Source of the DNA: an uncultured Eisenbergiella sp.
Lineage (GTDB): Bacteria; Bacillota; Clostridia; Lachnospirales; Lachnospiraceae
DNA length: 52,298 nucleotides
NCBI GenBank assembly: GCA_947627215.1
Contig: CANQVD010000027.1
Coordinates: 1-52,298 of the forward strand
Direction of reading: 5' to 3'
Part shown: positions 8,803 to 28,094 of the stretch, piece by piece
How positions within the stretch are numbered: the first letter of the stretch is position 1
Layout: each line of letters opens with the position of its first letter
Translations under genes and position numbers: made by a program
The notes under the pieces: model-generated
The model's database searches: none
The model's input: only the letters and a program-made list of their open reading frames with translations
Told to the model about the DNA's origin: nothing

Positions 8803-8913
8803 CCTTAACCCCGTATTTTAAACAGCAATGTTTACAGTCTATTTTTGCATGCTCCAATCATCAGAAACCGTTATGAACTTTCCAAACTCCAATACGGTCC
8901 ACAGCCGCACAGA

Positions 8914-9585
8914 TCATGAAAAAGGTTCCGCGCTTTCCCCCGGTCCGAAAAAATGCTCCTCCAGCATCAGACACAGACAGTGATAAACCGGCAGATGCAG
9001 TTCCTGGATCATATAAGTCTCCGTTTCCGGAACACGGATCGCAACATCGGCAACGACTGCCAGTTCCCCTCCGTTTTCTCCGGTCAGCCCGATCACCCGG
9101 ATCCCCATCGCCCTGGCGACCACCGTCGCGCTCATCACGTTTTGGCTGTTGCCGGATGTGGAGATGCCCAGGAAAACGTCACCGGGCTTCCCATATCCCA
9201 GCAGTTGCTGCGCGAATACGCCCTGTCCGTCAACATCATTGATATATGCCGTCGTCAGCGCTTCGTGCGCCACAAGCGGAATCGCCATCAGGCCTCTCTC
9301 CAGACTTCCGGCCAGAGACGCCCCCCTGGCCGGATCGATCTCCGCCAGCTTTCGGGCAAACTCGGGCGTGACCGCTCTCGGCATCCGAAACCGTTTCATC
9401 AGTTCCCCAGCCATATGCTCACAGTCCGCGGCCGATCCCCCGTTGCCGGCAAGCAGCAGCTTCCCGCCATTCTCGTACGACTCCTCCAGAAGGGAATATG
9501 CCTCCTCAATTTCCCTCCTGCATATGTCCAGCACAGGATAGCGCCCGATCAATACATCGATATGTTTTTTCAGCTTATCTTCCAA
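8914..9585 (-). CDS. gmhA: Phosphoheptose isomerase (SIS domain)
   Basis: 223 aa from a TTG at 9585 that has GGAGG six nt upstream; an ATG at 9606 in the same frame has no good ribosome site. The SIS domain shows GNGGSAADCEHMAGEL, the GmhA active-site signature, and ISTSGNSQNV for phosphate binding; the C-terminal HxxxH region is VYHCLCLMLEEHFF. It converts sedoheptulose 7-phosphate to D-glycero-D-manno-heptose 7-phosphate, the first step of heptose synthesis. It follows the nucleotidyltransferase/phosphatase fusion with an 11-nt overlap and hddA further upstream, so all the steps of one pathway are clustered. Confidence 0.9.
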   Translation of the reverse strand: MEDKLKKHIDVLIGRYPVLDICRREIEEAYSLLEESYENGGKLLLAGNGGSAADCEHMAGELMKRFRMPRAVTPEFARKLAEIDPARGASLAGSLERGLMAIPLVAHEALTTAYINDVDGQGVFAQQLLGYGKPGDVFLGISTSGNSQNVMSATVVARAMGIRVIGLTGENGGELAVVADVAIRVPETETYMIQELHLPVYHCLCLMLEEHFFGPGESAEPFS

Positions 9586-10975
9586 TGTCTTCCTCCGTCC
9601 TGCCATCCGTCCGGTTTCCCATGATCCTGTCCACGAGTTCCGCCAGCGAGTTCCCGACCAGATCAGCCCCTGCCGCCGGGCCGACCGCCGCTTCTGTGAT
9701 CAGTCCTGTCCGGCAGCCCGCGTTTCGCCCCGCCAGGACATCATTTTCCCCATCGCCGATCATCCAGGACTCAGACAGGTCTATATTGTATTCTTTTGCC
9801 GCGCGCAGCAGCATACCCGGCTTCGGTTTCCTGCACGCACACTCCACCTTCAGTTCCGGGATCTCTCCGGCATATCCCCTATGGGGATGATGCGGGCAGA
9901 AATAAATCCTGTCCAGATATGCCCCCTGTTCCCCCAGAAGCGTTTCCATCTTATCATGAATCTCCTGAAGCCCTTCAAAGGACACTTCCCCGCGGGCCAC
10001 CACCGGCTGGTTCGTCACCACAACGGCGAGATATCCTGACGCATTGATCTTCCGGACCGCTTCAGCCGCACCGGGCAGCAGTTCAAAATCATCAATATCC
10101 CGCAAAAAACCTTTGTACCTGTTTATCGTGCCGTCACGGTCCAAAAAGATCGCTCTCTGTTTTCCGGAAAGATTCCTGCTCTGTACGATACCGGCCTCAT
10201 AGTCCCGGCAGACACCGTAATACCGCTCCGGCGTTCCCATATCCCTGACATACTCCGGACTGTCGTATACATACATCCTCCCGGTCCCTGCCAATGGCCG
10301 CAACAGATCCCGATCCAGGTCCATCTTTCCTCTCGGCGCCGCCGTCTCCCGATCCTGACCAATACCGCCGTCCGTCACAGTGATTCTTTCCTCAACGGAC
10401 AGAGAATCCAAATATTTCTCAAGGACAGAAGCCTTTACAACATGGAGCCCCGCATTCACCCGATTCTGATACCATTCCGGCCTGACGTCCTCCTTCGTCA
10501 GCCAGCGCACGACTTCCCCGCTTCCCGACGCGATGATGAGTCCGCTGTCATACGGATGAGAATTCGGATGCGTAAACAGCGTTACATCCGCGTTCTTTTC
10601 CCGGTGTGCCTTGATCATCCTGCCAAAATCCACATCAAAAACAGCATCCGCGTTCAGAAGCAGGAACGAATCGTCCCCGCTTTCCGCGATCTCTTTTCTC
10701 AGCCGGAACAACGCCCCCGCATTTCCCAGCGGTTCCTTTTCAAAATAGTATGAAATATGTACCCCAAACCGACGGCCGTCCCCAAAGTGATCCATGATCA
10801 CCTCTCCTCTGTGGCTGACGGTCAGAATAATATCGGAAAACCCCTGTTTTCGAAGACATTCCAGCTCCCGTTCCAGCACCGGCTTCCCGCAGACCGGAAG
10901 CATGGGTTTCGGAATGTCATGGGCCACAGACGCGATACGGGCACCCTTTCCTCCCGCCATGATCACGGTCAGCAT
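9575..10975 (-). CDS. hddC/gmhB: Fused heptose-1-phosphate nucleotidyltransferase and heptose-1,7-bisphosphate 7-phosphatase
   Basis: 466 aa; ATG preceded by GGGGGAGG and overlapping the hddA stop by 7 nt. Residues 1-240 are a sugar-1-phosphate nucleotidyltransferase (MAGGKGAR, then KPMLPVCGKP, and the NAD metal site near 108). Residues about 275-450 are a HAD phosphatase with the nucleophile motif FLDRDGT (D279, D281), VVTNQP and GDGENDVLAGRNAG. A zinc-binding pattern CPHHPH and CACRKP is typical of GmhB. In known GDP-heptose pathways these activities are HddC and GmhB, usually separate proteins. The fusion would couple removal of the 7-phosphate to nucleotide transfer. GTP as donor is inferred from the partner HddA. 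Confidence 0.88.
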   Translation of the reverse strand: MLTVIMAGGKGARIASVAHDIPKPMLPVCGKPVLERELECLRKQGFSDIILTVSHRGEVIMDHFGDGRRFGVHISYYFEKEPLGNAGALFRLRKEIAESGDDSFLLLNADAVFDVDFGRMIKAHREKNADVTLFTHPNSHPYDSGLIIASGSGEVVRWLTKEDVRPEWYQNRVNAGLHVVKASVLEKYLDSLSVEERITVTDGGIGQDRETAAPRGKMDLDRDLLRPLAGTGRMYVYDSPEYVRDMGTPERYYGVCRDYEAGIVQSRNLSGKQRAIFLDRDGTINRYKGFLRDIDDFELLPGAAEAVRKINASGYLAVVVTNQPVVARGEVSFEGLQEIHDKMETLLGEQGAYLDRIYFCPHHPHRGYAGEIPELKVECACRKPKPGMLLRAAKEYNIDLSESWMIGDGENDVLAGRNAGCRTGLITEAAVGPAAGADLVGNSLAELVDRIMGNRTDGRTEEDIGR

Positions 10976-12015
10976 CCCGCAGCCTCCCCCTCGCCGTGAT
11001 GCGCCTTTCGCTGCGCATCCGGTCGAAATTCCTCCTCCATATAATAGAGGATCCGGGTTCCCCCATTCTCAAACGCAAACGGAATATAAAGCAGATCCCG
11101 CATGGCATCTTTTACCGCCTCCTGCGCTTCCTGCGGCACATAAAAGATCAGGAATCCGCCTCCGCCCGCACCCAGAAGCTTTCCGCCCAGAGCACCGGCT
11201 TCCAGCCCTCTTTGATACAGCGTATCAATCACCTCCGTCGTGACCCACCCTCCGGTCCGCCGTTTGAGCTGCCAGGAGGCATCCAGCATTCTTCCGAACT
11301 CATCCAGATCCGCATGCCGATCCGTCAGAATATCCTGTGCTTTCTCCACCAGAACGTACATCTGCTCCAGCCTGGCTTTCCTTTCCGCATCCCGTACCGC
11401 ATGATTGGCCTTCTGAACCTCCGCTGAGAACCTTGTAAAACCGGTAAAAAACATAAGAATGTTCTGATTCAGTTTTCTTTTACGCTCCGGATCCATGACG
11501 ACGGGATGCACTTCATACCCATCCGGGCCAAAATCAATCCGATTCAGACCTCCGTAAGAAGCCGCGATCTGATCCTGCCAGCCGCCGGCCTCTCCGCAAA
11601 GCACACGTTCCAGATAGATCGCCTCGTCCGCCAGCCGTTTCTTATCCACGTATTTTCCCTTCATGGCATAAAAAGCGCTCAGCATCCCTACGGCGAAGGA
11701 ACTGCTTGTCCCAAGGCCGGAGCGTGCCGGAAGATCAGCCTCATAGGTGAGCCTTATTTCCCGCATGTCCAGCATCCGCATGGCATTGCGGATCAGCGGA
11801 TGCTCGATCCGTCCCAGGTCCGTCACCCGCTCCATCCGGGAATAGACCAGTTCCGTGCTGTAGTCAAAAAAGCGGGGCAGATGCCGGGCCGTAACGTAAC
11901 AGTATTTATCAATGGTAGTGGAAAGGACAGCCCCGCCGTTTTTTCTGAAATAATCTTCCATATCTGTTCCTCCGCCGAAGAAGGACATGCGAAAGGGCGT
12001 TTGCGTAATTATCAT
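10969..12015 (-). CDS. hddA: D-glycero-alpha-D-manno-heptose 7-phosphate kinase (GHMP family)
   Basis: 348 aa from the ATG at 12015 behind AGGAGAG; the frame is open for 28 more codons upstream without a start-site signal. It opens with TPFRMSFFGGGTDM, has the GHMP ATP-binding loop ARSGLGTSSSFAVG and the C-terminal glycine motif KLLGAGGGGFLIFY. This is the sugar-kinase branch containing HddA and fucokinase-like enzymes. It phosphorylates heptose 7-phosphate at C1. With gmhA and the downstream fusion it completes a route to GDP-D-glycero-alpha-D-manno-heptose, known from S-layer glycans and capsules. L-fucose kinase-like activity is the alternative but less likely given the neighbours. Confidence 0.88.
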   Translation of the reverse strand: MIITQTPFRMSFFGGGTDMEDYFRKNGGAVLSTTIDKYCYVTARHLPRFFDYSTELVYSRMERVTDLGRIEHPLIRNAMRMLDMREIRLTYEADLPARSGLGTSSSFAVGMLSAFYAMKGKYVDKKRLADEAIYLERVLCGEAGGWQDQIAASYGGLNRIDFGPDGYEVHPVVMDPERKRKLNQNILMFFTGFTRFSAEVQKANHAVRDAERKARLEQMYVLVEKAQDILTDRHADLDEFGRMLDASWQLKRRTGGWVTTEVIDTLYQRGLEAGALGGKLLGAGGGGFLIFYVPQEAQEAVKDAMRDLLYIPFAFENGGTRILYYMEEEFRPDAQRKAHHGEGEAAGC

Positions 12016-12040
12016 CCGTGTAACTCTCCTGACCGTTTTA

Positions 12041-12093
12041 GAAAAATAAAAATCCTGATATAGGGCAATCACATACTCTATACCAGAATTTTT
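12041..12093 (-). terminator. Rho-independent terminator of Rpn cassette A
   Basis: On the minus strand an imperfect 16-bp stem (arms 12078-12093 and 12048-12063) is followed by a T-rich tail. It lies after the last small Rpn ORF and before hddA. The same element with a more regular stem ends cassette B at 18464-18509, so it belongs to the duplicated unit. Confidence 0.65.
12066..12090. repeat. Left inverted repeat of Rpn cassette A
   Basis: A 25-nt sequence beginning CAATCACATACT matches, inverted, the right-end element at 15363-15387 at about 21 of 25 positions. It overlaps the terminator stem. The equivalent left element of cassette B is 18484-18508. Confidence 0.5.
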
Positions 12094-12138
12094 CTTCATT
12101 TTCTGCCGATCGATCTTCTGTATTCTAATTGTTATTTC

Positions 12139-12468
12139 TCATGACCCGTTTTTTGCGCCATACCGGAGCATCTGTTTGGAGAATTCGTCCTCGCTCAATC
12201 CTGCCTGTCTGGCCGCATCCCGAAGGGAAATCATCCGCTTGCGCACCATGTCAGTTAGAGTCGTCAAAATGCCTTTTTCCATCCCTTGCTGCACACCTCT
12301 TTCCATCCCGATCTCAATGCCTTCCTCCAGATAGGATTCCTGCAGCAGCTTTCGTTCTTTCGCTTCATCATATTCGAATATCGACATCGCCTTTACCTCC
12401 GCTCTCTGTCTGCTCAAAAAATCCGCCAGAATGTTCTCCCGAATGCACTCCGTCACTGCCCTGTCCAC
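12139..12468 (-). CDS. Stand-alone Rpn C-terminal domain, copy 1
   Basis: 109 aa, starting at a GTG (12468) behind AGGGGAA. It matches residues from about VDRAVTEC to the end of the full-length Rpn proteins in the window (RQRAEVKAMSIFEYDEAKER, then a Gly-rich linker, ARQAGLSEDEFSKQMLRYGAK). The nuclease domain is absent. The linker has few tetrapeptide units (GMER, GVQQ, GMEK). It is the most diverged of the array and the last before the terminator. An upstream in-frame stop separates it from copy 2, so it is not a simple read-through part. It could be a decaying fragment, or a small regulatory protein like the RpnS products of E. coli. Confidence 0.6.
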   Translation of the reverse strand: MDRAVTECIRENILADFLSRQRAEVKAMSIFEYDEAKERKLLQESYLEEGIEIGMERGVQQGMEKGILTTLTDMVRKRMISLRDAARQAGLSEDEFSKQMLRYGAKNGS

Positions 12469-12555
12469 CGCTTCCCCTAAAGGCAGTTTCCTCGATTCTT
12501 ATGCAGTTCATAGAAACCGTGGCGGGCTCATAAATAACGGGGAAATCCGCCTATG

Positions 12556-13029
12556 TTATCCGCTTTTTGCGCCATACCGAAGCATCTGTTTGGAGAATTC
12601 GTCCTCACTCAATCCTGCCTGTCTAGCTGCATCCCGGACGGAAATCACCTTCTCGTGTACCAGGTCGATCAGGGTGGTTAAAATTCCTCTTTTTATACCT
12701 TGCTCTATTCCTTGCTCTATCCCTTGCTCTATCCCTTGCTCTATTCCCTGCACGATCCCCTGCTTTATGCCCCTTTCCATCCCGATCTCAATGCCTTCCT
12801 CCAGATAGGATTCCTGCAGCAGTTTCCGTTCTTTCGCTTCATCATATTCGAATATCGACATCGCCTTTACCTCCGCTCTCTGTCTGGTCAGAAAATCCGC
12901 CAGAATATTCTCCCGGATACACTCCGTCACCGCCCTGTCCACCGCTTCCTCTAAAGGCAGTTCTTTCGCATGCGCTCTGATCCGCGCCACCAGGATGCTG
13001 TAGCCCTCCAGAGTTTTGCACTTTTCCAT
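12556..13029 (-). CDS. Stand-alone Rpn C-terminal domain, copy 2
   Basis: 157 aa, the longest of the partial copies. It starts exactly at the Met of MEKCKTLEGYSILVARIRAH, a point inside the full-length gene, after which it follows the parent sequence to the stop; upstream of that Met the similarity stops abruptly. Its ribosome site is weak. The linker holds nine tetrapeptide units, among them four GIEQ in a row. No nuclease motif. Same possible roles as copy 1. Confidence 0.6.
   Translation of the reverse strand: MEKCKTLEGYSILVARIRAHAKELPLEEAVDRAVTECIRENILADFLTRQRAEVKAMSIFEYDEAKERKLLQESYLEEGIEIGMERGIKQGIVQGIEQGIEQGIEQGIEQGIKRGILTTLIDLVHEKVISVRDAARQAGLSEDEFSKQMLRYGAKSG
12684..12795 (-). repeat. 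12-bp tandem repeats coding tetrapeptides, Rpn copy 2
   Basis: About nine 12-bp units with plus-strand core TTGCTCTATCCC code for G-[IMV]-x-[QRK] tetrapeptides, expanded here to four consecutive GIEQ. The same region has about 4, 10, 7 and 5 units in the other members of the array and about 3 in cassette B. Confidence 0.8.
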
Positions 13030-13122
13030 CAGTTCACTTGTGTTCGTATCTATTGCCGCTTCTGATGCAGTTCACAGAAACACCGCGACGGATTCATAAA
13101 ATGATGGGCAAATCCGCCTATG

Positions 13123-13533
13123 TTATCTGTTTTTCGCTCCATACCGGAGCATCTGTTTGGAGAATTCGTCCTCGCTCAATCCTGCCTGTCTGGCCGCATC
13201 TCGGACGGAAATTACCTTCTCGTGTACCAGATCGATCAGGGTGGTTAAAATTCCTCTTTTTATGCCTTGCTCCATCCCCTGTTCTATTCCTCTCGCTATC
13301 CCCCGCTCCATTCCTTGCGCTATCCCCCGCTCCATCCCCTGCTTTATGCCTCTTTCCATCCCGATCTCAATGCCTTCTTCCAGATAGGATTCCTGCAGCA
13401 GTTTCCGTTCTTTCGCTTCATCATATTCGAATATCGACATCGCCTTTACCTCCGCTCTCTGTCTGGTCAGAAAATCCGCCAGAATATTCTCCCGGATGCA
13501 TTCCGTCACCGTCCTGTCCACTGCTTCCTCCAT
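13123..13533 (-). CDS. Stand-alone Rpn C-terminal domain, copy 3
   Basis: 136 aa with a convincing own start: GAAGGA six to seven nt before an ATG. At this place the full-length gene has LPLEEAVDR; here the Leu codon TTA has become ATG (LPMEEAVDR), so a start codon has arisen or been kept. The rest follows the parent C-terminus, with ten linker units of mixed type (GMER, GIAQ, GIAR, GIEQ). It lies about 80 nt after the stop of copy 4. The intergenic sequence is conserved between copies. Confidence 0.65.
   Translation of the reverse strand: MEEAVDRTVTECIRENILADFLTRQRAEVKAMSIFEYDEAKERKLLQESYLEEGIEIGMERGIKQGMERGIAQGMERGIARGIEQGMEQGIKRGILTTLIDLVHEKVISVRDAARQAGLSEDEFSKQMLRYGAKNR
13252..13374 (-). 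repeat. 12-bp tandem repeats coding tetrapeptides, Rpn copy 3
   Basis: The longest run in the array, about ten in-frame 12-bp units, with alternating GMER/GIAQ/GIAR types rather than the uniform GIEQ of copy 2. Confidence 0.75.
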
Positions 13534-13608
13534 AGGTAGTTCCTTCGATTCTTATGCAGTTCATAGAAACCGTGACGGGCTTATAAATAACGGGGAAATC
13601 CGCCTATG

Positions 13609-13983
13609 TTATCCGTTTTTTGCGCCATACCGGAGCATCTGTTTGGAGAATTCGTCCTCACTCAATCCTGCCTGTCTGGCTGCATCTCGGACGGAAATCA
13701 CCTTCTCGTGTACCAGGTCGATCAGGGTGGTTAAAATTCCCCTTTTTATACCTTGCTCTATCCCTTGCTCTATTCCCTGCACGATCCCCTGCTTTATGCC
13801 TCTTTCCATCCCGATTTCAATACCTTCCTCCAGATAGGATTCCTGCAGCAGCTTCCGTTCTTTCGCTTCATCATATTCGAATATCGACATCGCCCTTACC
13901 TCCGCTCTCTGTCTGATCAGAAAATCCGCCAGAATATTCTCCCGGACGCATTCCGTCACCGCCCTGTCCACTGCTTCCTCCAT
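13609..13983 (-). CDS. Stand-alone Rpn C-terminal domain, copy 4
   Basis: 124 aa with the same start arrangement as copy 3 (GAAGGA then ATG in place of TTA). It carries seven linker tetrapeptides and then the conserved end ARQAGLSEDEFSKQMLRYGAK. It follows the full-length gene by about 75 nt. No nuclease residues are present, so any function must be binding or regulation. Confidence 0.65.
   Translation of the reverse strand: MEEAVDRAVTECVRENILADFLIRQRAEVRAMSIFEYDEAKERKLLQESYLEEGIEIGMERGIKQGIVQGIEQGIEQGIKRGILTTLIDLVHEKVISVRDAARQAGLSEDEFSKQMLRYGAKNG
13739..13824 (-). repeat. 12-bp tandem repeats coding tetrapeptides, Rpn copy 4
   Basis: About seven units, identical in type to copy 2 but two units shorter, as expected of slippage or unequal crossing-over between neighbours. 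Confidence 0.7.
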
Positions 13984-14058
13984 AGGTAGTTCCTTCGATT
14001 TTTATGCAGTTCACAGAAACCGTGACAGGCTTATAAATAACGGGAAAATCCGCCTATA

Positions 14059-15072
14059 TTATCTGTTTTTTGCCCCATACCGAAGCATCTGTTTGGAGAA
14101 TTCGTCCTCACTCAATCCTGCCTGTCTGGCCGCATCCCGAACGGAAATCATCTTCTCGTGTACCAGGTCGATCAGGGTGGTTAAAATTCCTCTTTTTATG
14201 CCTTGCTCCATCCCCTGCTTTATGCCTCTTTCCATTCCGATCTCAATGCCTTCCTCCAGATAGGTTTCCTGCAGCAGCTTCCGTTCTTTCGCTTCATCAT
14301 ATTCGAATATCGACATCGCCTTTACCTCCGCTCTCTGTCTGGTCAGAAAATCCGCCAGAATATTCTCCCGGATACACTCCGTCACCGCCCTGTCCACCGC
14401 TTCCTCTAAAGGCAGTTCTTTCGCATGCGCTCTGATCCGCGCCACCAGGATGCTGTAGCCCTCCAGGGTTTTGCACTTTTCCATCAGCTCCCGGTTCTTT
14501 CCATAGTTAATGTTCAGGATCCGGACCTTCAGTTCCAGTTCGGGATGCTGTGTCCGCTTCAGAAAAGAATCCGACAATCTCAATATGCTCTGCTCCGGCT
14601 GTTCTTCCATGCCGTTGTAAAAAACCACGAAACGGGGCTCCGGAATTCTCACCAGCCTGCGGCCATACAGGGACTTCCCTTCTGTATACCGCTCCAACTG
14701 GCGGGTCACATAGCTCAGATCCCGCAGCGGCAGATTCGGATTGACGGACGCCTGATGCTCGAACAGGCAAAGTTCTCCATCGAACAGAAGCGACACATCG
14801 TTCTTCACGTTCATGTAGATGGAATTCTCCAGCGTGTAGACCTCCAGCGCCGTCTCATCCGTATGTGCTGTCCCATTCAGCGCATTGTACAGTTCCAGAA
14901 GGTTCTTCTTCTCCCGAAAGAGCATTCGAAATACTGTGTCCTTATGGTTGCGGACCGGTTTTGCTGCGGTTACAGCAATGTCATGATCCGCAGTCATGGG
15001 AGCATCCCGGTTCGAGCCCGCAACTGCGGCACCCGCGCCCGAAATGGCAGCCCCATTTCTCTCATCCTGCAT
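14059..15072 (-). CDS. Rpn-family recombination-promoting nuclease/putative transposase, full length (cassette A)
   Basis: 337 aa from the ATG at 15072 behind AAGGAG; the same start context precedes the cassette B copy. Order: variable Ala-rich N-terminus (1-45), PD-(D/E)XK nuclease domain (about 48-160) with KDTVFRMLFREKKNLLELYN and the catalytic region NDVSLLFDGELCLFEHQA (Asp and ExQ), a helical middle, a Gly-rich tetrapeptide linker and a conserved tail. Family members (E. coli RpnA-E) are Mg-dependent DNases that raise RecA-independent recombination and have been linked to phage defence. Inside the gene a GTG at 14397 has AGAGGAAG just before it, so a C-terminal product of about 112 aa could be made separately. 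Four partial copies follow. Confidence 0.85.
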   Translation of the reverse strand: MQDERNGAAISGAGAAVAGSNRDAPMTADHDIAVTAAKPVRNHKDTVFRMLFREKKNLLELYNALNGTAHTDETALEVYTLENSIYMNVKNDVSLLFDGELCLFEHQASVNPNLPLRDLSYVTRQLERYTEGKSLYGRRLVRIPEPRFVVFYNGMEEQPEQSILRLSDSFLKRTQHPELELKVRILNINYGKNRELMEKCKTLEGYSILVARIRAHAKELPLEEAVDRAVTECIRENILADFLTRQRAEVKAMSIFEYDEAKERKLLQETYLEEGIEIGMERGIKQGMEQGIKRGILTTLIDLVHEKMISVRDAARQAGLSEDEFSKQMLRYGAKNR

Positions 15073-15257
15073 GGCGGCTCCTTTCTGCCTGTTCAACAAA
15101 TACGAAGCCGCCGCCCAGCCTTTCCTTCCTGTCTCAGCGGCTTTCGCATCATCAAATTGTAAACGGATTGCAAGCATAGAGATCAGAAAACAGCCAGATG
15201 AAAGAAAAGACACTTGATTCGGATTCTTCAGATTTTCGGAAATTTATGCTTAATTAC

Positions 15258-15286
15258 AGAATAGCACGGAGCACTGCGGATTGCAA
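15258..15286 (-). promoter_or_regulatory. Promoter of the cassette A Rpn gene
   Basis: Minus-strand -35 TTGCAA (15281-15286), 17-nt spacer and -10 TATTCT (15258-15263), giving a leader of roughly 180 nt before the ATG at 15072. Cassette B has the same arrangement at the same relative place, with a differing spacer but conserved boxes, which supports function. The rest of 15073-15495 holds the conserved leader and right-end element; I see no further gene there. Confidence 0.65.
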
Positions 15287-15362
15287 CAGCGGCGACAAAA
15301 ATTTGGCACTTCTGCATACACAAATCGTTCGGAATTCGGTCAACATACACAGTTGTGATGTC

Positions 15363-15387
15363 AATTCTGATATAAAGTATGAAATTG
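15363..15387. repeat. Right inverted repeat of Rpn cassette A
   Basis: A 25-nt element whose reverse complement begins CAATTTCATACTTTATA. It is identical in cassette B (19826-19850) and matches the left-end elements in inverted orientation. Confidence 0.5.
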
Positions 15388-15495
15388 TCAAGGTGCTCGA
15401 ATATTAGGAAGCCCTCTCCGCGGAAGAAACCTTCAGCAACTGCGGGAAAAATTCACAGCAGCCGCTGGAAAATTCCGCAAAGGAGAAAGCACTGT

Positions 15496-16920
15496 TTACT
15501 GATAAGTAAATGTAAACAAATCTACGAGTTCTCCCGTTCGCCTGTCAAACGCTGCCGTCACCAGGTTGGGGACATCTCCGTTCTCGTCAAGAAGATAATT
15601 CGTTTCATTTTCACCGACATACAAATATCCTTCACCCGTCTTCGAACTATAGCCATATCGTATCCTTCCGAAGGACGTCTCCCACTCTTTTCCGGCAGCA
15701 TCTCCCAAATACTCCGTACACCCTTTTTCCCGATCGGCTATCATGAAATAGGAAGCGTTCATATTCTGTGCTTCTGAATATCGCTTACTTCCCGCGATAT
15801 TGTGAATCATATAGGGCGGCGTTCCCCAATGCAGATAGTCCGACGATCCATTGACAAAAAGGAGTACATCAAGCCCTTCGTCCGAAAGCAGCATCATTTT
15901 CTGTACCTGCTCCTTCATCGCACGAAGACAATCCCATTTATAAGCGGCGTATTCCTCATAATCCATATTCCAGTGCGCATACCGGCCGTTATCCCGTTCA
16001 TCCGGAACAGCACAGTTTTCCTGAAGATATTGCCCGAGAAATTTTGTCACTTTTCTCGCTCCGGAGGGATTCAAATGGGAATTCGCGTCAAAGCAGTCTG
16101 TCATGAAATCAATTCCTGTATCCTCATAAAATAGATTCAGATAATCGATCCCATATTCCTCCGCGATCATCTGAGCGCTGTTTCCCCATTTCTGCTCGTC
16201 CAAGGAGGCCGGGAAAGGAATATTTACCAACAGAACCTCGATTCCTCTTCCCTGGCAGGATTCAATCATCTTTCTTAAGTATTCTTTTGCCAGCGTTTCC
16301 TCCCGGTACATATCCACCCTGTCTATGAGTGAAAAATCATCCGGCACTACCCGACTGACCCGATATTCCGCTCCTTTTCCAGGGTCGATCTTTGGCGAAA
16401 AATCTTTCTCCCCCAGCGACTGCCAACGCTCGTGATACTTTGATATCGGGAAAATAAACTCCATCCGGGTCGTCCAGTCATCGAAAAGATAACAGGCCAT
16501 TTTGATCTTATTCACCGAAAGCGGGAGCCAGTCGAAAGAAATGTGCTGTTGGTCAATTCCAGGCTGATCCGGCCTTATCTTCTCATTTAAACCCAATCCG
16601 AGAACATCGATCACAACAAGATCCGTCGTGCAGTGATCCAATACATTCTCCATCATCCAATATGTCGTAGGGAACCGGTTGCCATGCCCTGCACAATTAT
16701 AGGATACGATTCCATAATCCTTCCAGAGTTCCATCGGATACACAGCATTTATCATATGCGATGTCCCGAAGAAAAGAACATCATAGTGTTCATCCTCCTT
16801 CAAATCCGCGTATTTCACAACACTCTGTTTGTCCTCAAAAAGCTTTGTCAGCCCTTGTATAATCACAGCGAACACAACAACAAACAAAGCCACGCTCAGA
16901 AAATGTGAATTTCTTTTCAT
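15496..16920 (-). CDS. SGNH-type membrane-anchored protein, partner of the MBOAT acyltransferase
   Basis: 474 aa. A single N-terminal membrane segment (residues about 7-27) is followed by an extracellular SGNH/GDSL-like domain: VLFFGTSHM (nucleophile Ser block), an NCAGHGN block and DANSHLNPSGA (Asp and His block). This is the DltD/AlgJ/PatB-like pattern. Such proteins act with an MBOAT channel to put acyl groups on cell-envelope polymers. The MBOAT gene lies 12 nt upstream, which supports the pairing. The C-terminal 150 residues are not clearly assignable. The acylated polymer is presumably the glycan made by this locus. Confidence 0.75.
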   Translation of the reverse strand: MKRNSHFLSVALFVVVFAVIIQGLTKLFEDKQSVVKYADLKEDEHYDVLFFGTSHMINAVYPMELWKDYGIVSYNCAGHGNRFPTTYWMMENVLDHCTTDLVVIDVLGLGLNEKIRPDQPGIDQQHISFDWLPLSVNKIKMACYLFDDWTTRMEFIFPISKYHERWQSLGEKDFSPKIDPGKGAEYRVSRVVPDDFSLIDRVDMYREETLAKEYLRKMIESCQGRGIEVLLVNIPFPASLDEQKWGNSAQMIAEEYGIDYLNLFYEDTGIDFMTDCFDANSHLNPSGARKVTKFLGQYLQENCAVPDERDNGRYAHWNMDYEEYAAYKWDCLRAMKEQVQKMMLLSDEGLDVLLFVNGSSDYLHWGTPPYMIHNIAGSKRYSEAQNMNASYFMIADREKGCTEYLGDAAGKEWETSFGRIRYGYSSKTGEGYLYVGENETNYLLDENGDVPNLVTAAFDRRTGELVDLFTFTYQ

Positions 16921-16932
16921 AGCCGGTCACCT

Positions 16933-18432
16933 CTAAAACTGGAAATAAATAAACGTCTGGGCATCATAACCGGAACCATATTTCCCGAAAATGAGAACAG
17001 CCAGGACTCCCGCCATCGCGGCAGCAAATCGAAACCACCACTCCTGCCGGAGGATCCACTGCCTTATCACAATTCCTTTATACTTCGCCCAATCCGCCAG
17101 ACAAGTGACCAGCAGCCCCGCCAGCATCAGATCATATTCCTTCTGAGACAACCCGAGTTTAAACAGAGACCCATCAAAAAATATCCATAAATTTTTCGCG
17201 GTGAACATACTTTCCAGCGCCATCCATGCCGCCTTCAGGGATGGTGCGCGGAAAAACACCCAAGCCAGATCGACTAACGCGAAGGTGACGATGATTTCGG
17301 CCAACCTATGACTAAAGGAGTTTTTTATCAATCCCAATTTTTGATCAAGTCTCTCCCGGACAGGCCTCAGATAACTTCCCGCAATCTGAATGACTCCATT
17401 TACCCCCCCCCAAACCACATAAGTCCAATTCGCTCCATGCCAGAGTCCGCTCAACAAAAACACGATCATGAGATTCCTGTTCTTCTTCCGTTCTCCTTTC
17501 CGATTCCCTCCCAGCGGAATATAAACATAATCCCGAAACCAATAACTAAGGGAACGATGCCACCGCCTCCAAAACTCTCCCACCGAAGCGGATAGATAAG
17601 GAGACTCAAAATTGTCCATCAGAGAAAACCCAAGGATATAGGACACGCCGCGCGCGATATTGGAATATCCTGCGAAATCAAAATAAATCTGAAACGCAAA
17701 CAAAACGCTCGCCACTACCACATACCAGCCGGTATAAGCGGTCAGGTCACCGTATACCGTATCCACAATGATCGCAATTCTGTCCGCGAGCACCATCTTC
17801 AGGATGTACCCCCACAGGACCAAAAGGAAGCCCTCGCGGAAACGGTCATAAGAAAAGGCATGCTTATCTTTAAACTGTCCCAGCAGATTTCCGGAGCGCT
17901 CAATGGGACCTGCCACGAGCTGCGGGAAAAAAGACACAAAAAGCGCATATGTAATGAAATCGTGTTCAGCCTTCGTATCCCCCCGATATACATCGATCAG
18001 GTATCCCAACGCCTGAAAGATATAAAAGGAAATCCCCACCGGCAGGATCAGATTCAGCGAGATATCCATCTGTCTGCCACCGAAAGCCTGTCCCAGGAGA
18101 CTGAAATTCCGCACGGCGAAATCCGCATATTTGAAATAGAACAGAATCCCCAGGTTGAGAACCAGGCCGATGATCAAAATATTTCTTTTATATTTCCCAG
18201 AATCTGCCTCATCCTCATAGCTCCGCTCCATGTTTTCCATATCCAATGCCAAAAAGTAGGTTATGCAGGTGCTTGCCAATAAAAGCATTCCATATGAGGC
18301 ATTCCAATTCATGTAAAAGAAATAACTGCTGATAAGGAGCCAGATATTTCTTAACCGAACTGATGGGAGTAAGAAATAAACAAGGGTAACAACTGGGAAA
18401 AAGATTAAAAAACTTAGTGAGTTAAATAACAT
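16933..18432 (-). CDS. MBOAT O-acyltransferase (AlgI/DltB type)
   Basis: 499 aa from the ATG at 18432 behind GGGAGAG. About ten membrane segments. Signature blocks are PQLVAGPIERSGNLL, DFAGYSNIARGVSYILGF, FWRRWHRSLSYWFRDYVYIPLGG and LLSGLWHGANWTYVVWGG with the catalytic His of WHG. It transfers acyl groups across the membrane to an extracytoplasmic acceptor, here probably handed to the SGNH protein. A run of nine G inside the GG codons after VVW is in frame; a change of one base would truncate the protein about two thirds along. The gene sits directly after the terminator of cassette B, and I see no convincing promoter of its own. Confidence 0.88.
   Translation of the reverse strand: MLFNSLSFLIFFPVVTLVYFLLPSVRLRNIWLLISSYFFYMNWNASYGMLLLASTCITYFLALDMENMERSYEDEADSGKYKRNILIIGLVLNLGILFYFKYADFAVRNFSLLGQAFGGRQMDISLNLILPVGISFYIFQALGYLIDVYRGDTKAEHDFITYALFVSFFPQLVAGPIERSGNLLGQFKDKHAFSYDRFREGFLLVLWGYILKMVLADRIAIIVDTVYGDLTAYTGWYVVVASVLFAFQIYFDFAGYSNIARGVSYILGFSLMDNFESPYLSASVGEFWRRWHRSLSYWFRDYVYIPLGGNRKGERKKNRNLMIVFLLSGLWHGANWTYVVWGGVNGVIQIAGSYLRPVRERLDQKLGLIKNSFSHRLAEIIVTFALVDLAWVFFRAPSLKAAWMALESMFTAKNLWIFFDGSLFKLGLSQKEYDLMLAGLLVTCLADWAKYKGIVIRQWILRQEWWFRFAAAMAGVLAVLIFGKYGSGYDAQTFIYFQF
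17403..17411 (-). repeat. G9 tract in the MBOAT gene
   Basis: Nine consecutive G on the coding strand, spanning the codons for W-G-G-V. In frame in this sequence (ON). Candidate slipped-strand phase-variation site. Confidence 0.6.
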
Positions 18433-18463
18433 ATATATACTCTCCCGCCTGCTTTTCTGCGCA

Positions 18464-18509
18464 CAAAAAATCCTGGTACTAAGCAATCTCATACTTTATA
18501 CCAGGATTT
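18464..18509 (-). terminator. Rho-independent terminator of Rpn cassette B
   Basis: Perfect 11-bp stem on the minus strand (arms 18499-18509 and 18468-18478, core CCTGGTA/TACCAGG) followed by six T. It lies 40 nt after the Rpn stop and about 30 nt before the MBOAT start. Confidence 0.8.
18484..18508. repeat. Left inverted repeat of Rpn cassette B
   Basis: 25 nt beginning CAATCTCATACTTTATA, about 22 of 25 positions matching the inverted right-end element at 19826-19850. It overlaps the terminator arm. Confidence 0.5.
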
Positions 18510-18551
18510 GTTCATTCTTTTTTTATTGATGAATATCGTACGAACGGATTA

Positions 18552-19544
18552 TCAGGATCTGTTTTTTGCCCCGTACCGAAGCATCTGCCGGGAAAATTCA
18601 TCCTCGCTCAGCCCCGCCTGTCCGGCCGCGTCCCGGATGGAGAGCATCTGCTTGCGTACCAAGGCGGTCAGGGTCAACAGAATCCCTTTCTTCATTCCCT
18701 GTTCCATCCCGATCTCAATACCCTCTTCCAAATAGGATTCCTGCAGCAGTTTCCGTTCCTTCTCCTCATCATACTCGAATATCGACATCGCCTTTACCTC
18801 CGCTCTCTGTCTGCTCAAAAAATCCGCCAGGATATCCTCCCGGATGCATTCCGTCACCGCTCTGTCCACCGCTTCCTCTAAAGGCAGTTCTTTCGCATGC
18901 GCTCTGATCCGCGCCACCAGGATGCTGTAGCCCTCCAGGGTTTTGCACTTTTCCATCAGCTCCCGGTTCTTTCCATAGTTAATGTTCAGGATCCGGACCT
19001 TCAGTTCCAGTTCGGGATGCTGTGTCCGCTTCAGAAAAGAATCCGACAATCTCAATATGCTCTGCTCCGGCTGTTCTTCCATGCCGTTGTAAAAAACCAC
19101 GAAACGGGGCTCCGGAATTCTCACCAGCCTGCGGCCATACAGGGACTTCCCTTCTGTATACCGCTCCAACTGGCGGGTCACATAGCTCAGATCCCGCAGC
19201 GGAAGGTTCGGATTGACAGAGGCCTGATGCTCGAACAGGCACAGTTCGCCGTCGAACAGAAGCGACACGTCGTTTTTCACGTTCATGTAGATGGAATTTT
19301 CCAACGTGTAAACCTCCAGCGCCGTCTCATCCGTATACGCCGTTCCGTTCAGCGCATTGTACAGTTCCAGGAGATTTTTCTTTTTCCGGAAGAGCATCCG
19401 AAATACCGTGTCCTTATGGTTGCGGACCGGTTTTGTCGCTGCTCCGGCAAGGCCATGCGCAGCATCCCAAGACGTCTCCCGGTTCAATGCCGCAGCAGCG
19501 GCGTCTGCATCCGAAACAGCAGACCTATCTCTCTCATCCTGCAT
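18552..19544 (-). CDS. Rpn-family recombination-promoting nuclease/putative transposase (cassette B)
   Basis: 330 aa; ATG behind AAGGAG. Same architecture as the cassette A protein: variable Ala-rich head, PD-(D/E)XK domain with NDVSLLFDGELCLFEHQA, helical middle and conserved tail SEDEFSRQMLRYGAK. Residues 48-240 are almost identical to the other copy. The linker is the shortest in the window (GMEQ, GMKK). The internal GTG with AGAGGAAG before it is kept here too. Unlike cassette A, no partial copies follow; a terminator comes 40 nt after the stop. Confidence 0.85.
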   Translation of the reverse strand: MQDERDRSAVSDADAAAAALNRETSWDAAHGLAGAATKPVRNHKDTVFRMLFRKKKNLLELYNALNGTAYTDETALEVYTLENSIYMNVKNDVSLLFDGELCLFEHQASVNPNLPLRDLSYVTRQLERYTEGKSLYGRRLVRIPEPRFVVFYNGMEEQPEQSILRLSDSFLKRTQHPELELKVRILNINYGKNRELMEKCKTLEGYSILVARIRAHAKELPLEEAVDRAVTECIREDILADFLSRQRAEVKAMSIFEYDEEKERKLLQESYLEEGIEIGMEQGMKKGILLTLTALVRKQMLSIRDAAGQAGLSEDEFSRQMLRYGAKNRS

Positions 19545-19720
19545 GGGCGGCTCCTTTCTGCCTGCTCAGCATACATGGAGCTGCAGACCAGTGCTCCCCT
19601 GTCCCAGCGGCTCCAGCAACATCAAACTTTCGCGGATCTTAAGCATAGAGTTCTGAAAACAGCCAGACGTGAGAAAAGGGTTCGGATTCCTTAGATTTTC
19701 GGAAATTTATGCTCAGTTAC

Positions 19721-19749
19721 AGGATAGCATGGTACATTTCGGATTGCAA
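19721..19749 (-). promoter_or_regulatory. Promoter of the cassette B Rpn gene
   Basis: Minus-strand -35 TTGCAA (19744-19749), 17 nt, -10 TATCCT (19721-19726). Same position relative to the gene as in cassette A. The stretch 19545-19907 otherwise holds the leader and the right-end element and no gene. Confidence 0.6.
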
Positions 19750-19825
19750 CAGAGACGCCGGAATTTTGGGAAGCCTGCACATATACTGCATCAGGAATTC
19801 GGGCACTATGTACATCTGCGATGTC

Positions 19826-19850
19826 AATTCTGATATAAAGTATGAAATTG
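19826..19850. repeat. Right inverted repeat of Rpn cassette B
   Basis: Identical to 15363-15387; inverted match to 18484-18508. The identity between cassettes continues outward to about 19878. Confidence 0.5.
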
Positions 19851-19907
19851 TCAAGGTGCTCGATATATTAGGAAGCCTTGCATGTAACCTAAAGCTACTA
19901 TATAAAA

Positions 19908-20618
19908 TTACAAATGCAGAAATCTTTCAAGGTCTTCAGGTGTCCCAAGTCCATGCATCCGATCCCCAATATTTTTAAATACAATTTTCTTCCCAGCCTC
20001 TATCATCTCATTGTACACAGGAGCCACATAAAACTCATTATTGACTCGTATATTTTTTTTGATCATTTGTTTTGCATACTTTACAAAATCCGAACCTTTG
20101 CTATAGTTATAAATTCCAACTGTCGCTTCGTTGGAAATCACTTCCTTCTCCCTGACTAATGTGACATATCCATTATCATCATATCGTATAAAACTCCATT
20201 TGGGATTATCCGCAGGCATCGTCATAATAAGTCCGTCATTCTGCTTTAACACAGCAAGATAATCATCTATGCATATATCAACAAATTGATCACTGTTAGC
20301 AATCATAAGGGGATTTTCATTATTAATGTATTTTTCTACTAATAACACCGTACAAGCGGCCCCTTCAGTTATATGATCAACTGTAACAACAATGCATCCT
20401 GCGGCAATTGAATCCAACTTTCTAGCAAGGTCATACTTATCTAGGTGTTCCTGCTGACATATGAAAATAAATCTATGCTCACACTGTGGCATCAAATTTC
20501 GGGCTACACACTCTATCATGGGTACTCCTTTTACATCAATAAGCGGCTTAGGGAGCTCATAACCTGCTCTAGCAAATCTGCTTCCTTTTCCTGCCATCGG
20601 GATAACTATATTAAGCAT
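19908..20618 (-). CDS. Sugar/polyol-phosphate nucleotidyltransferase-like protein 1
   Basis: 236 aa; ATG behind AAGGAG. N-terminal NIVIPMAGKGSRF and KPLIDVKGVPMIE are the nucleotide-binding blocks of the NTP_transferase fold, and IANSDQFVDI takes the place of the usual metal-binding Asp block. It probably activates a small phosphorylated building block with a nucleotide. It shares clear similarity with the gene at 20950-21669, so two related enzymes, or an enzyme and a non-catalytic relative, lie in one module with a cupin, a HAD phosphatase and a GDPD-like protein. Substrate unknown. AT-rich like its neighbours. Confidence 0.75.
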   Translation of the reverse strand: MLNIVIPMAGKGSRFARAGYELPKPLIDVKGVPMIECVARNLMPQCEHRFIFICQQEHLDKYDLARKLDSIAAGCIVVTVDHITEGAACTVLLVEKYINNENPLMIANSDQFVDICIDDYLAVLKQNDGLIMTMPADNPKWSFIRYDDNGYVTLVREKEVISNEATVGIYNYSKGSDFVKYAKQMIKKNIRVNNEFYVAPVYNEMIEAGKKIVFKNIGDRMHGLGTPEDLERFLHL

Positions 20619-20632
20619 CTTTTTAATCTCCT

Positions 20633-20953
20633 TTATACCTCATATTTGTCGTTATTTGCACCCGGCAGTTTCACAACAACATTCTCCGCATCTGTCATAG
20701 CGAGAAAATCCGTTATTTCACCTGGCTCCATTATTATGATATCTCCAGCAACATATTCTTTGCTGTTCATGCAAATTTTTCCTTTTGTCACAACCGTTAT
20801 CTCGGTCGCGATTTTGTGATAATGTCTCCTTTCGTATGTCCCAGCACTGTAAGATTTTACTGCAACTTCGACATTATTTGTCCTATAGAGTGTAGGTTCA
20901 AAATTACCTATAAACCACCCTTTTGTCATATCATGCAGTTTTGCCGTTCTCAT
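20633..20953 (-). CDS. Small cupin-domain protein
   Basis: 106 aa; ATG behind GGAGG. A single cupin barrel: the metal-site motif is RRHYHKIATEITVV (His, His, Glu) and the second motif is GDIIIMEPGEITDF. Small cupins in polysaccharide loci act as isomerases or as regulators of sugar-nucleotide synthesis, but no specific role can be read from the sequence. The start overlaps the stop of the second nucleotidyltransferase by 4 nt, so the genes are translationally coupled. Confidence 0.75.
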   Translation of the reverse strand: MRTAKLHDMTKGWFIGNFEPTLYRTNNVEVAVKSYSAGTYERRHYHKIATEITVVTKGKICMNSKEYVAGDIIIMEPGEITDFLAMTDAENVVVKLPGANNDKYEV

Positions 20954-21669
20954 AAATATCTTCCTCCCTCATACTCCTTCACCTTTTCAGGAGAATAGAA
21001 CGAATGGTATTTTTCTTTTGGAATTTCATAATATGAAATTTTTCTGCACATAAGAATCATCTCGTTAATAGAAGCTGAGATATAAAATTTTCCATTTAGG
21101 CTGTTATCCTTTATGATCGCTTTCTTCGCACTTTCAATAAAATCCGATCCTTTTTTGTAGTAATAAAAACCTGCAATTGCATCTTTTGAAAGAGGCCTTT
21201 TTTCTGCAACTTCTATAACCTCTTTTCCCTGTTTTCTCGCATAGCTCCAACGCGGATGAATGCTCGGAAAAGTTATAATTCCCGCATCAGCTTTCTCATC
21301 TTCAAAATGCTTTATTACATGCTTGTAATCTATATCGATTATCTGATCACTGTTTGCAATTATAAGCGGAGTATTATTATTTATATAATCAACCGCCATA
21401 AGGCAGGTACACAGTGCACCTTTAGTTTGATTTTTGAGACGTATTATCGCACTAAGTGGAGATAGAATTTTAGCAGACTTATCAAGATGAAATTCGTTAC
21501 AATCTCTGTCATCAAAAACGAAAATATATCTTTTCGGATCAATGCAAGCATAGTTTTCCATAACCATTTCGAGCATTGTTTTCCCCTCTATCTCTATAAG
21601 TGGCTTCGGGAAAAAACTGTCTTCAAAAAAAATGGATTTTCCCATAGAGGGAATCAATATATTAACCAT
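20950..21669 (-). CDS. Sugar/polyol-phosphate nucleotidyltransferase-like protein 2
   Basis: 239 aa from the ATG at 21669, which has GGAGG 5 nt upstream; an ATG at 21681 precedes that ribosome site. It opens with VNILIPSMGKSIFFED, lacking the full GxGxR loop of its paralogue (PSMGKS instead of MAGKGSR), then has FFPKPLIEIEGKTMLE and IANSDQIIDIDY. The altered nucleotide loop suggests different specificity or loss of activity. It overlaps the HAD gene upstream by 8 nt and the cupin downstream by 4 nt. Confidence 0.7.
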   Translation of the reverse strand: MVNILIPSMGKSIFFEDSFFPKPLIEIEGKTMLEMVMENYACIDPKRYIFVFDDRDCNEFHLDKSAKILSPLSAIIRLKNQTKGALCTCLMAVDYINNNTPLIIANSDQIIDIDYKHVIKHFEDEKADAGIITFPSIHPRWSYARKQGKEVIEVAEKRPLSKDAIAGFYYYKKGSDFIESAKKAIIKDNSLNGKFYISASINEMILMCRKISYYEIPKEKYHSFYSPEKVKEYEGGRYL

Positions 21670-22312
21670 TTCCGCCTCCATTGACCTGGTCTATCAGTCC
21701 TCGTATATTGGCATAATTCACGTCATATACTGTAGCCACTTCCAACACTGAAGCACCACTCGCCTTTCCCGCCGCTATGCCGTTTGGATTGTCCTCTACA
21801 ACTATACATTCTTCAGGCTCAAGACCAAATTTAGCAATAGTAGTCTGATACATTTCCGGGTCAGGCTTCGCGTTTTTGACATCCTCGTTTGACACAATTA
21901 AATCAATATAACCAATTAGCATTGACTTTTCCATCATCAATTCGATGGTTGATCGTATTGAATTTGAGCATACCGCTATTTTATAACCCTCATTATGAAG
22001 TTTTGACAGCGCATATTCATGGTGAAACATCGGATGACATCTTTCATGGATCATCTGCACTGTATAAAGCTGTTTTATCTGATTTACAAAACTATGAAGC
22101 TGCTCTGGCAGATAATACTGTTCACTGAGCATTTTCAACTTAACTTTTGTAGGCAATCCATCAAAAGTATGTAAGTGATCATATCTGCTCATTTCTATCC
22201 CAAAGAGCTCAAGTGCCTTATGCAACGCTTCATAATGCCAGTCTTTGGCATCAATCAGCACTCCATCCATATCGAAAAGTATCGCTTTAACCATAATCCT
22301 GCCCCATTTCAT
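21662..22312 (-). CDS. HAD-superfamily phosphatase (beta-phosphoglucomutase-like)
   Basis: 216 aa from an ATG that overlaps the previous stop (ATGA) and has AAGGA upstream; an ATG six codons later is possible. Motif I is LFDMDGVLID, motif II is AVCSNS and motifs III-IV are KPDPEMYQ and VVEDNPNGIAAGKASG. The helical cap of subclass I is present between motifs I and II. It probably removes a phosphate from, or moves it on, a small sugar or polyol phosphate feeding the adjacent nucleotidyltransferases. Substrate not identifiable. Confidence 0.85.
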   Translation of the reverse strand: MKWGRIMVKAILFDMDGVLIDAKDWHYEALHKALELFGIEMSRYDHLHTFDGLPTKVKLKMLSEQYYLPEQLHSFVNQIKQLYTVQMIHERCHPMFHHEYALSKLHNEGYKIAVCSNSIRSTIELMMEKSMLIGYIDLIVSNEDVKNAKPDPEMYQTTIAKFGLEPEECIVVEDNPNGIAAGKASGASVLEVATVYDVNYANIRGLIDQVNGGGNG

Positions 22313-22947
22313 ATTACATCCTTAAAGAAACTCCGTGCTTCCTCAGGATAATCTGTACACAATAGTATTTTTGAAAAATCTATATTCCAACTTCTGAGAC
22401 GATCCCAAAACAAATCATAATCGGATTTCCCATGCAGTTCCGGAGAAACAAGACACACTTCTTTATCTGCCGAGATGTATTCCCGTAACAGTTCTGCCGT
22501 AATCCAATCGATTCCATCAAATCCATCGACCCATAGTCCCGCCGCCTGTCTATACATCACAGGAGTAGTCTCATATTCACTTCGGCGAGTGAAAAATCTC
22601 ATGCCCAACTGCTCGTACTCGATCATCTGCGGAACAGACATATCGAACAAAAAATAATTCTTCACATTATATTTTTTCAAATAATCCAATATAAGATTTT
22701 TTAATCCATCTGCTTTTATATTAATTGCGAAACAATATCGGTCTCCATATTCAGAAAGCCATTCAAAAACTTCCTCGGCATCCTGGCATGATTCAACTGC
22801 AATATCATGTGAAATAACCAAATGTCCTTTATAATCACGAATATCCGACTCAAAGCCGAACCCATACTTAAGGGCATTTTTAAGCGCCTCAGGCGAATTC
22901 CATGAAACCTTTTCATCCCAATATCCCCGATGAGCCAATATACGCAT
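22309..22947 (-). CDS. Glycerophosphodiester phosphodiesterase-like (GDPD) protein
   Basis: 212 aa; ATG behind AAAGGAG. It opens with ILAHRGYW and has FESDIRDYKGHLVISHD, the HR...ExD...HD metal and catalytic pattern of GDPD-type TIM barrels. The protein is short for the family and has no signal peptide, so it acts in the cytoplasm. In this setting it may handle a phosphodiester intermediate of the module that includes the two nucleotidyltransferases, the cupin and the HAD protein. That is inference. Confidence 0.75.
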   Translation of the reverse strand: MRILAHRGYWDEKVSWNSPEALKNALKYGFGFESDIRDYKGHLVISHDIAVESCQDAEEVFEWLSEYGDRYCFAINIKADGLKNLILDYLKKYNVKNYFLFDMSVPQMIEYEQLGMRFFTRRSEYETTPVMYRQAAGLWVDGFDGIDWITAELLREYISADKEVCLVSPELHGKSDYDLFWDRLRSWNIDFSKILLCTDYPEEARSFFKDVI

Positions 22948-22951
22948 CTGT

Positions 22952-25490: not shown

Positions 25491-25587
25491 AATATAGCAG
25501 CCTTTCACTGTATCAAAATATACATATTCTATTCATTTTTCGTAAAATTTTCTATCTGAATTATTTCTTCCTTATATTTCTTTAAAT

Positions 25588-26148: not shown

Positions 26149-26162
26149 AAGAAACTCCTTTC

Positions 26163-27911: not shown

Positions 27912-27935
27912 AATAATCTCCCGAAAACAACTTGT

Positions 27936-28094
27936 TTATTTTCTCCTCAATTTCAAAACATTTAAAAAAGTCCCTTTTGTCCATAGATATAGGATTTCCC
28001 TGTCATTCGCCAGATTTCCTTCAATGCTAATTGAATTCAGTAATTTAAAATCTCCACGGCTTAATGCGTCTATTGTTTTAAGCTTAATTCCAAC
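27936..28094 (-). pseudogene. Decayed fragment of a family 4 glycosyltransferase
   Basis: The minus-strand frame has no start and begins 6 nt after the methyltransferase stop. It reads VGIKLKTIDALSRG, then LLNSISIEGN, ending at a TAA. This lines up with GAGIKVKIIEALSCG and LTNSIGIEGI of the intact glycosyltransferase at 28904-30121, the donor-binding part of the family 4 fold. About 50 codons remain and the rest is missing. It is a relic of gene loss or of a recombination event between glycosyltransferase genes. Confidence 0.6.

Follow-up and report, generated by a model that had tools for sequence, protein, structure and literature searches.

Four stand-alone RpnS-like reading frames in a row behind a full-length rpn gene of Eisenbergiella: a candidate set of antitoxins differing in repeat number

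We have analyzed 52,298 nucleotides from an uncultured Eisenbergiella sp., a genus of the Lachnospiraceae (GenBank assembly GCA_947627215.1, contig CANQVD010000027.1, positions 1 to 52,298; hereafter the window, which is contig C27 of a 4.04-Mb genome in 108 contigs). On its minus strand, a full-length rpn gene (L1), coding for a nuclease of the RpnL type, is followed by four open reading frames (ORFs) that hold only the C-terminal part, in the order S4, S3, S2 and S1, and then by a terminator-like hairpin. We lean, with confidence little more than evenly balanced, to the view that S1 to S4 are a set of stand-alone RpnS antitoxins of several specificities placed behind an rpnL-rpnS gene. The arrangement itself, one 337-aa Rpn gene with four C-terminal-only ORFs of 109-157 aa on the same strand, had been noticed in a preliminary description and is confirmed by the coordinates. 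A 300-nt stretch recurs in the five copies with 72-100% identity to the reference copy, hence not by chance, and the gaps from each stop to the next start in that description measure 75, 75, 93 and 87 nt from L1 to S1. All four S units lie downstream of an rpnL, lack the nuclease part and keep the RpnS start site.

That start site lies inside the reading frames. In the six copies of the window (L1, S1-S4 and a second full-length gene, L2), the sequence GGAGGT stands 7 nt before an ATG, 20 codons ahead of a series of 4-aa repeats. Across 154 distinct homologous sites, six of them from the window, the start column holds ATG in 78, GTG in 63 and another codon in 13 (ATG or GTG in 141/154). Where this column codes for valine, the codon is GTG in 63 of 64 cases, compared with 37% of valine codons overall, and the glutamate codon of the Shine-Dalgarno (SD) sequence is GAG in 142/147, compared with 39% overall. 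A strong SD was present at 148 of the 154 sites, whereas 1000 synonymous-codon resamplings gave 49.8 on average and never more than 68. The 154 sites are related by descent and not independent; other glutamate columns of the same alignment show only 17-53% GAG. Judged by sequence, the conserved SD and start codon are the signature of the RpnS start known from Escherichia coli and Clostridioides difficile, where it lies inside rpn genes (Zhong et al., PMC10327210). As the internal start occurs in every unit, and each of S1-S4 keeps its open RpnS frame, SD and ATG (4/4), the stand-alone units hold a complete RpnS frame whatever their upstream start.

The preliminary description had placed the starts further upstream, and its details are correct: an ATG in place of a leucine TTA codon behind GAAGGA in copies 3 and 4, a parental methionine in copy 2, and a GTG behind AGGGGAA in copy 1. 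Given the conserved GGAGGT-7 nt-ATG inside every copy, these are probably not the key starts. The methionine for leucine is not special to the stand-alone copies either: it is also present in the full-length gene of a sister genome, so it need not be an adaptation of theirs. That the copies are of the RpnS type is supported. The internal start in each copy, the differences in repeat number, L2 and a 26-nt rpn leader before S2 were absent from that description.

Regarding repeat number, the RpnS proteins of the array differ mainly by whole 4-aa repeats, which begin 20 residues after the RpnS start, inside the first helix (lengths and counts in Table 1). In the Rpn family, repeats of varying number are placed 8-20 residues after this start. 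None of S1-S4 has the number of L1, from which S4 differs by 2, S3 by 5, S2 by 4 and S1 by 1. Outside the repeats, the RpnS parts of L1, S4, S3 and S2 are nearly identical. Between neighbors, identity of the aligned residues is 95% for L1-S4, 96% for S4-S3, 92% for S3-S2 and 84% for S2-S1, the tail of S1 having diverged. In E. coli, RpnS inhibits RpnL, and one extra repeat in either RpnC-S or RpnC-L breaks the inhibition (PMC10327210). Because repeat number sets RpnL-RpnS pairing in RpnC, the S copies may likewise pair by repeat number; if the one-repeat rule is valid here, none of S1-S4 would inhibit L1, and the sister-genome RpnL would be the fitting partner of S3. The proposal in the preliminary description that the copies are inhibitors of different specificity is thus plausible, as all of them differ in repeat number, and is not proven.

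Accordingly worded as a model, each unit would be translated from the internal start as an RpnS of 82-105 aa, which would dimerize through its long repeat helix and neutralize an RpnL of its own repeat number rather than the neighboring L1. L1 would be restrained by the RpnS encoded inside L1 itself, and the set would protect the cell from other RpnL variants, such as earlier forms of the locus, other tandem copies or incoming rpn genes. A bolder version, which we hold only tentatively and think rather unlikely, is a length-coded antitoxin bank, with each RpnS keyed by its repeat number to one RpnL class and giving immunity to variants that the genome has lost or has yet to acquire. If this were true, S3 would keep immunity to an 11-repeat RpnL still found at the same locus in the sister genome.

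The preliminary description had named relaxed selection (ratio of replacement to silent rates, dN/dS, near 1) as an outcome to look for. Of the 10 changes in the RpnS part that occur only in stand-alone copies, 8 are silent and 2 replacement (P = 2e-4, given 23% silent sites), a pattern that shows apparent purifying selection on this part. Before the internal start, the unique changes are 1 silent and 3 replacement, with no sign of constraint in only 4 changes, and the contrast before and after the start is suggestive only (Fisher P = 0.095). The S3-S4 pair has 0 silent and 4 replacement differences before the start, and 10 silent and 1 replacement after it (P = 0.004).

The closest relative at the locus, a genome of the same genus (G002, the sister genome mentioned above), carries one full-length rpn gene at the corresponding position, again upstream of the GHMP kinase gene. 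Its RpnL and S3 have 11 repeats each, with the same order of M and I and 4 residue differences in a 44-residue tract. The 26 nt in the S3-S2 spacer that are identical to the 5' leader of this gene make S2 look like a full rpn gene minus its nuclease part. S1, S3 and S4 have one common leader/C-terminus junction, different from that of S2, so the locus holds two junction types. These sequences support, and do not prove, an origin of the units by loss of the nuclease part from tandem rpn genes. The sister contig breaks off within the rpn leader, 39 nt short of the ATG, and the sequence at its end recurs in the window. As a separate observation, more rpn copies may lie beyond this break (contig C6, locus L043).

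By folding, terminator-like hairpins follow S1, L2 and the rpn gene of the sister genome; two of the four spacers were folded, and no such hairpin was found in them. We infer that L1 and the S copies belong to one transcription unit. A consensus scan gave 8 terminator-like sites versus 3.0 expected, the hairpin 3' of S1 not being among them, and 2 consensus sigma-70 promoters versus 4.0 expected.

To place the array in a wider context, we compared it with loci L014-L226, some of which overlap. Together with the window, they hold 173 C-terminal ORFs, of which 25 are C-terminal-only and uncut by a locus edge, four of these being S1-S4. Among the other 21, an internal start was recognized in 15, and a nuclease fragment lies close upstream in another frame in 8. 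Within this set, no head-to-tail run of intact stand-alone units was found outside the window; the nearest cases are two broken pieces in L069 and, in L049, a pair of C-terminal ORFs that retain short remnants of the nuclease, lie 2.2 kb from each other and follow a full-length gene. Among the places listed from two family-wide searches (113 of 299 and 157 of 397 genomes with a match), there was no other close run of short frames except the L049 pair (G227).

Full-length rpn genes in tandem are found in L044, L045, L047, L073 and L178. In adjacent tandem pairs, four of them from the window, repeat number differs in 16/18 and internal insertions or deletions are multiples of 4 aa in 18/18; the pairs lacking any are those of L045 (identical) and L049 (79% identical). 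In L073 and L208, pairs that are 99% identical elsewhere still differ in repeat number. The single-contig genome G071 (L047, L048, L178, L182, L183 and L217), with 11-12 rpn C-terminal matches, several in tandem, offers a natural test set for changes in repeat number.

A stand-alone copy also occurs in E. coli: YpaA (RpnE-S) has a repeat number unlike that of its RpnE in 14/14 examined strains that carry it, the repeat insertions in RpnE/YpaA being 0/1 (4 strains), 5/1 (3), 5/2 (2), 1/4 (2), 8/4, 5/0 and 6/2. At least 30 of 60 E. coli records carry such a copy (29 by listed features, plus record H54). According to these counts, a mismatch in repeats between a toxin and the neighboring antitoxin appears to be common, selection for mismatch not being shown; as a law, mismatch was rejected as not significant (P = 0.17). 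In E. coli NZ_CP158351 (L241), which lacks ypaA, the RpnE tail is that of YpaA, consistent with a deletion or fusion between copies, an event described for rpnE and ypaA (PMC10327210).

Several points weigh against the proposed set of antitoxins. S1 alone gives 6 of the 10 unique changes in the RpnS part, and when it is left out 3/4 are silent (P = 0.038); part of the silent divergence, that of the S3-S4 pair included, may also have arisen before the nuclease part was lost. The E. coli mismatch just mentioned is not beyond chance: random pairing would give 1.3 matches, and 0 were observed. In 13/14 examined strains, ypaA carries a RefSeq pseudogene flag for a missing N-terminus. Four of the 8 sites in the scan are one weak terminator-like hairpin (6 pairs, CCGGGAG...), which lies upstream of the internal start within the coding part of L1, S4, S3 and S2, and these sites speak against one read-through transcript. 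The rule of repeat specificity rests on one E. coli RpnC experiment, and RpnL proteins with 5, 8 or 10 repeats of this type were not seen; the RpnL encoded on contig C13 has 8 repeats, of another sequence. Finally, we know of no passage of RpnL between cells, so the source of the targets is unproven. An assembly error may also be the source of the array; its position in the interior of a 52-kb contig and the distinctness of the copies count against this.

One could argue that this is a decaying tandem rpn array, in which duplicates lost a toxic and costly nuclease part and left C-termini with no present job. This is the main rival, possible in our view and on the doubtful side. Tandem duplication, the published origin of rpn arrays (PMC10327210), fits it, as do the tandem full-length genes in the five loci listed above, and so do the two junction types in one locus, the lack of any sign of constraint before the internal start, the repeat shifts between otherwise 99% identical copies and the pseudogene flags of ypaA. 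However, the open RpnS frame, SD and ATG have been kept in 4/4 copies, the unique changes in that part are mainly silent, and the stand-alone E. coli copy, present in half or more of the records, is made as a protein in K-12, as shown by tagging (PMC10327210).

The copies had also been proposed to be a store of cassettes. In this reading, their C-termini would pass by recombination into L1 or L2 and give the nuclease another repeat number and thereby another specificity; we regard this as improbable. It is true that L1 shares a 341-nt identical tract with L2, within 12-13% divergence, and one of 188 nt with S2, spanning the internal start, and such long tracts point to recent exchange between copies; the repeat order of S3 is also that of the sister genome's full-length gene. 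Yet the tract common to L1 and L2 stops before the RpnS part, so that it is the gene body and not the C-terminus that they share, and nothing shows a stored C-terminus moving into L1. Besides, the repeats of L1 look like a contraction of the type in S3 and the sister genome, for which no donor would be needed, and the comparison offers one sister genome only. Taken by itself, the L1/L2 pair, with an identical tract in the gene body and diverged RpnS parts, resembles the outcome of a recent gene conversion confined to the body. The least probable alternative, which we consider most unlikely, is that the additional RpnS proteins inhibit L1 itself weakly or in part and set the dose or trigger of its release: their position between L1 and the terminator-like hairpin and their near identity outside the repeats would suit it, but their repeat numbers are off that of L1 by 1 to 5, and a difference of one abolished inhibition in RpnC (PMC10327210).

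If S1-S4 are stand-alone antitoxins, they form with L1 a natural series of five closely similar antitoxins differing mainly in repeat number, beside two toxins, and this series could show whether pairing between RpnL and RpnS is encoded by repeat number alone. In the E. coli rpnE-ypaA strains and most of the tandem rpn pairs examined, the neighboring antitoxin does not match the repeat number of the toxin, which puts in question the view that a downstream copy serves as a backup for its own toxin.

Table 1. Features of the rpn locus in the window (RpnS lengths counted from the internal start; 4-aa repeats counted from EEGI up to LTTL)
Feature	Positions	Strand	Remarks
L1	14059..15072	-	full-length RpnL-type nuclease, 337 aa; invariant D92, E105, Q107
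RpnS of L1, from internal ATG	14059..14316	-	85 aa, 6 repeats
SD of L1 internal start, GGAGGT	14324..14329	-	7 nt before the ATG at 14316
L1 tract identical to L2 18862-19202	14390..14730	-	341 nt; ends 74 nt before the internal start
S4, stand-alone C-terminal ORF	13609..13983	-	124 aa from the start in the preliminary description; RpnS proper 13609-13890, 93 aa, 8 repeats; SD 13898-13903
S4-S3 spacer	13534..13608	-	leader/C-terminus junction common to 3 spacers (the others precede S4 and S1)
S3, stand-alone ORF	13123..13533	-	136 aa; RpnS proper 13123-13440, 105 aa, 11 repeats; SD 13448-13453
S3-S2 spacer	13030..13122	-	holds the 26 nt identical to the leader of the sister-genome (G002) full-length rpn
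S2, stand-alone ORF	12556..13029	-	157 aa; RpnS proper 12556-12861, 101 aa, 10 repeats; SD 12869-12874; leader/C-terminus junction of its own
S1, stand-alone ORF, GTG	12139..12468	-	109 aa; RpnS proper 12139-12387, 82 aa, 5 repeats; SD 12395-12400; most diverged tail of the array
Terminator-like hairpin after S1	12028..12092	-	by folding, z -3.6; missing from the consensus-scan list
Weak hairpin in L1	14355-14371	-	consensus scan
Weak hairpin in S4	13929-13945	-	consensus scan
Weak hairpin in S3	13479-13495	-	consensus scan
Weak hairpin in S2	12900-12916	-	consensus scan
L2, second full-length rpn gene	18552..19544	-	330 aa; RpnS 18552-18788, 78 aa, 4 repeats

The sequence similarity of L1 to E. 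coli Rpn is remote. Its residues N91, D92, E105 and Q107 are invariant in 48 aligned sequences, as in a PD-(D/E)XK core, and a match of this alignment to E. coli RpnE covers the EHQ motif (hhalign 83.8%, E 8e-6). L1 scores below the curated cut-offs of TIGR01784 (15.3 of 52.1 bits) and PF04754 (12.9 of 21); at E 0.01 or better, these families recognize 23/48 and 8/48 of the aligned members, respectively. The predicted structure of L1 has a nuclease domain at about 43-200, a long helix at 247-307 that bears the repeats, and two short helices, and in S3 a single helix is predicted at 8-73 (mean predicted local distance difference test, pLDDT, 72). In structure comparisons, L1 matches PD-(D/E)XK nucleases and, with its tail, a DNA-binding domain of the DeoR type, all of these weakly. 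The PDB profile search returned three matches, none of them a nuclease and the best a ribosomal protein at E 0.03; Foldseek gave no match at E 0.001, Rfam gave none, and 7TH0, the RpnA-S entry by the PDB number in PMC10327210, was not among the matches listed in the profile and structure searches. PADLOC gave only a weak match to a 'putative invertase' profile along the repeat helix, and FliH and Yae1 profile matches on the repeats were taken as low-complexity.

L2 is 88% identical to L1, and the two full-length genes are 3.5 kb apart. Further rpn relatives in the genome are found on contig C13 (73%) and, more distant, on four other contigs. Relatives of L1 were also found among faecal phages (5 records) and plasmids (2 records); viral contigs gave 4 relatives, the best with 70% identity over its best segment. 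The unannotated faecal phage contigs MT838692, MT836069 and MT837051 encode full or partial L1 relatives. The neighboring genes are of the sugar-nucleotide and polysaccharide type (SIS isomerase, nucleotidyltransferase/phosphatase, GHMP kinase and MBOAT). Over positions 8900-28000 of the window, the rpn genes stand amid polysaccharide and heptose-type sugar genes, and no defence gene was recognized alongside in the 10 neighboring ORFs scanned.

No account of a run of several RpnS copies turned up among the listings of the literature searched, most subscription papers and supplements being outside its reach. The orphan or anti-addiction antitoxins of PMC7354431 resemble the array in being toxin-less antitoxin genes, proposed to neutralize incoming toxins; however, those are classic type II antitoxins, and the accessible text of that paper describes neither length-coded specificity nor an array. 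With the tandem rpn arrays of PMC10327210 and of loci L044, L047, L073, L178 and others, the locus shares the head-to-tail order and RpnS parts that differ by whole 4-aa repeats, but those elsewhere consist mostly of full-length copies, whereas here 4/5 are without the nuclease part. Like YpaA, the array places a C-terminal copy immediately behind its rpnL, in the same orientation and with a repeat number unlike that of RpnL; YpaA differs in being one copy, and one that bears a pseudogene flag in nearly all records.

The likeness to the E. coli RpnL/RpnS system (PMC10327210) extends to the D...ExQ core of the nuclease, the internal RpnS start, the variable 4-aa repeats in the first RpnS helix and the stand-alone RpnS copies that follow rpnE and, in certain strains, rpnC. 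Unlike that system, the window has four stand-alone copies in a row, every one with a different repeat number. Single stand-alone RpnS genes and tandem rpn arrays have thus been described already, and what appears to be new here is the run of several stand-alone RpnS copies.

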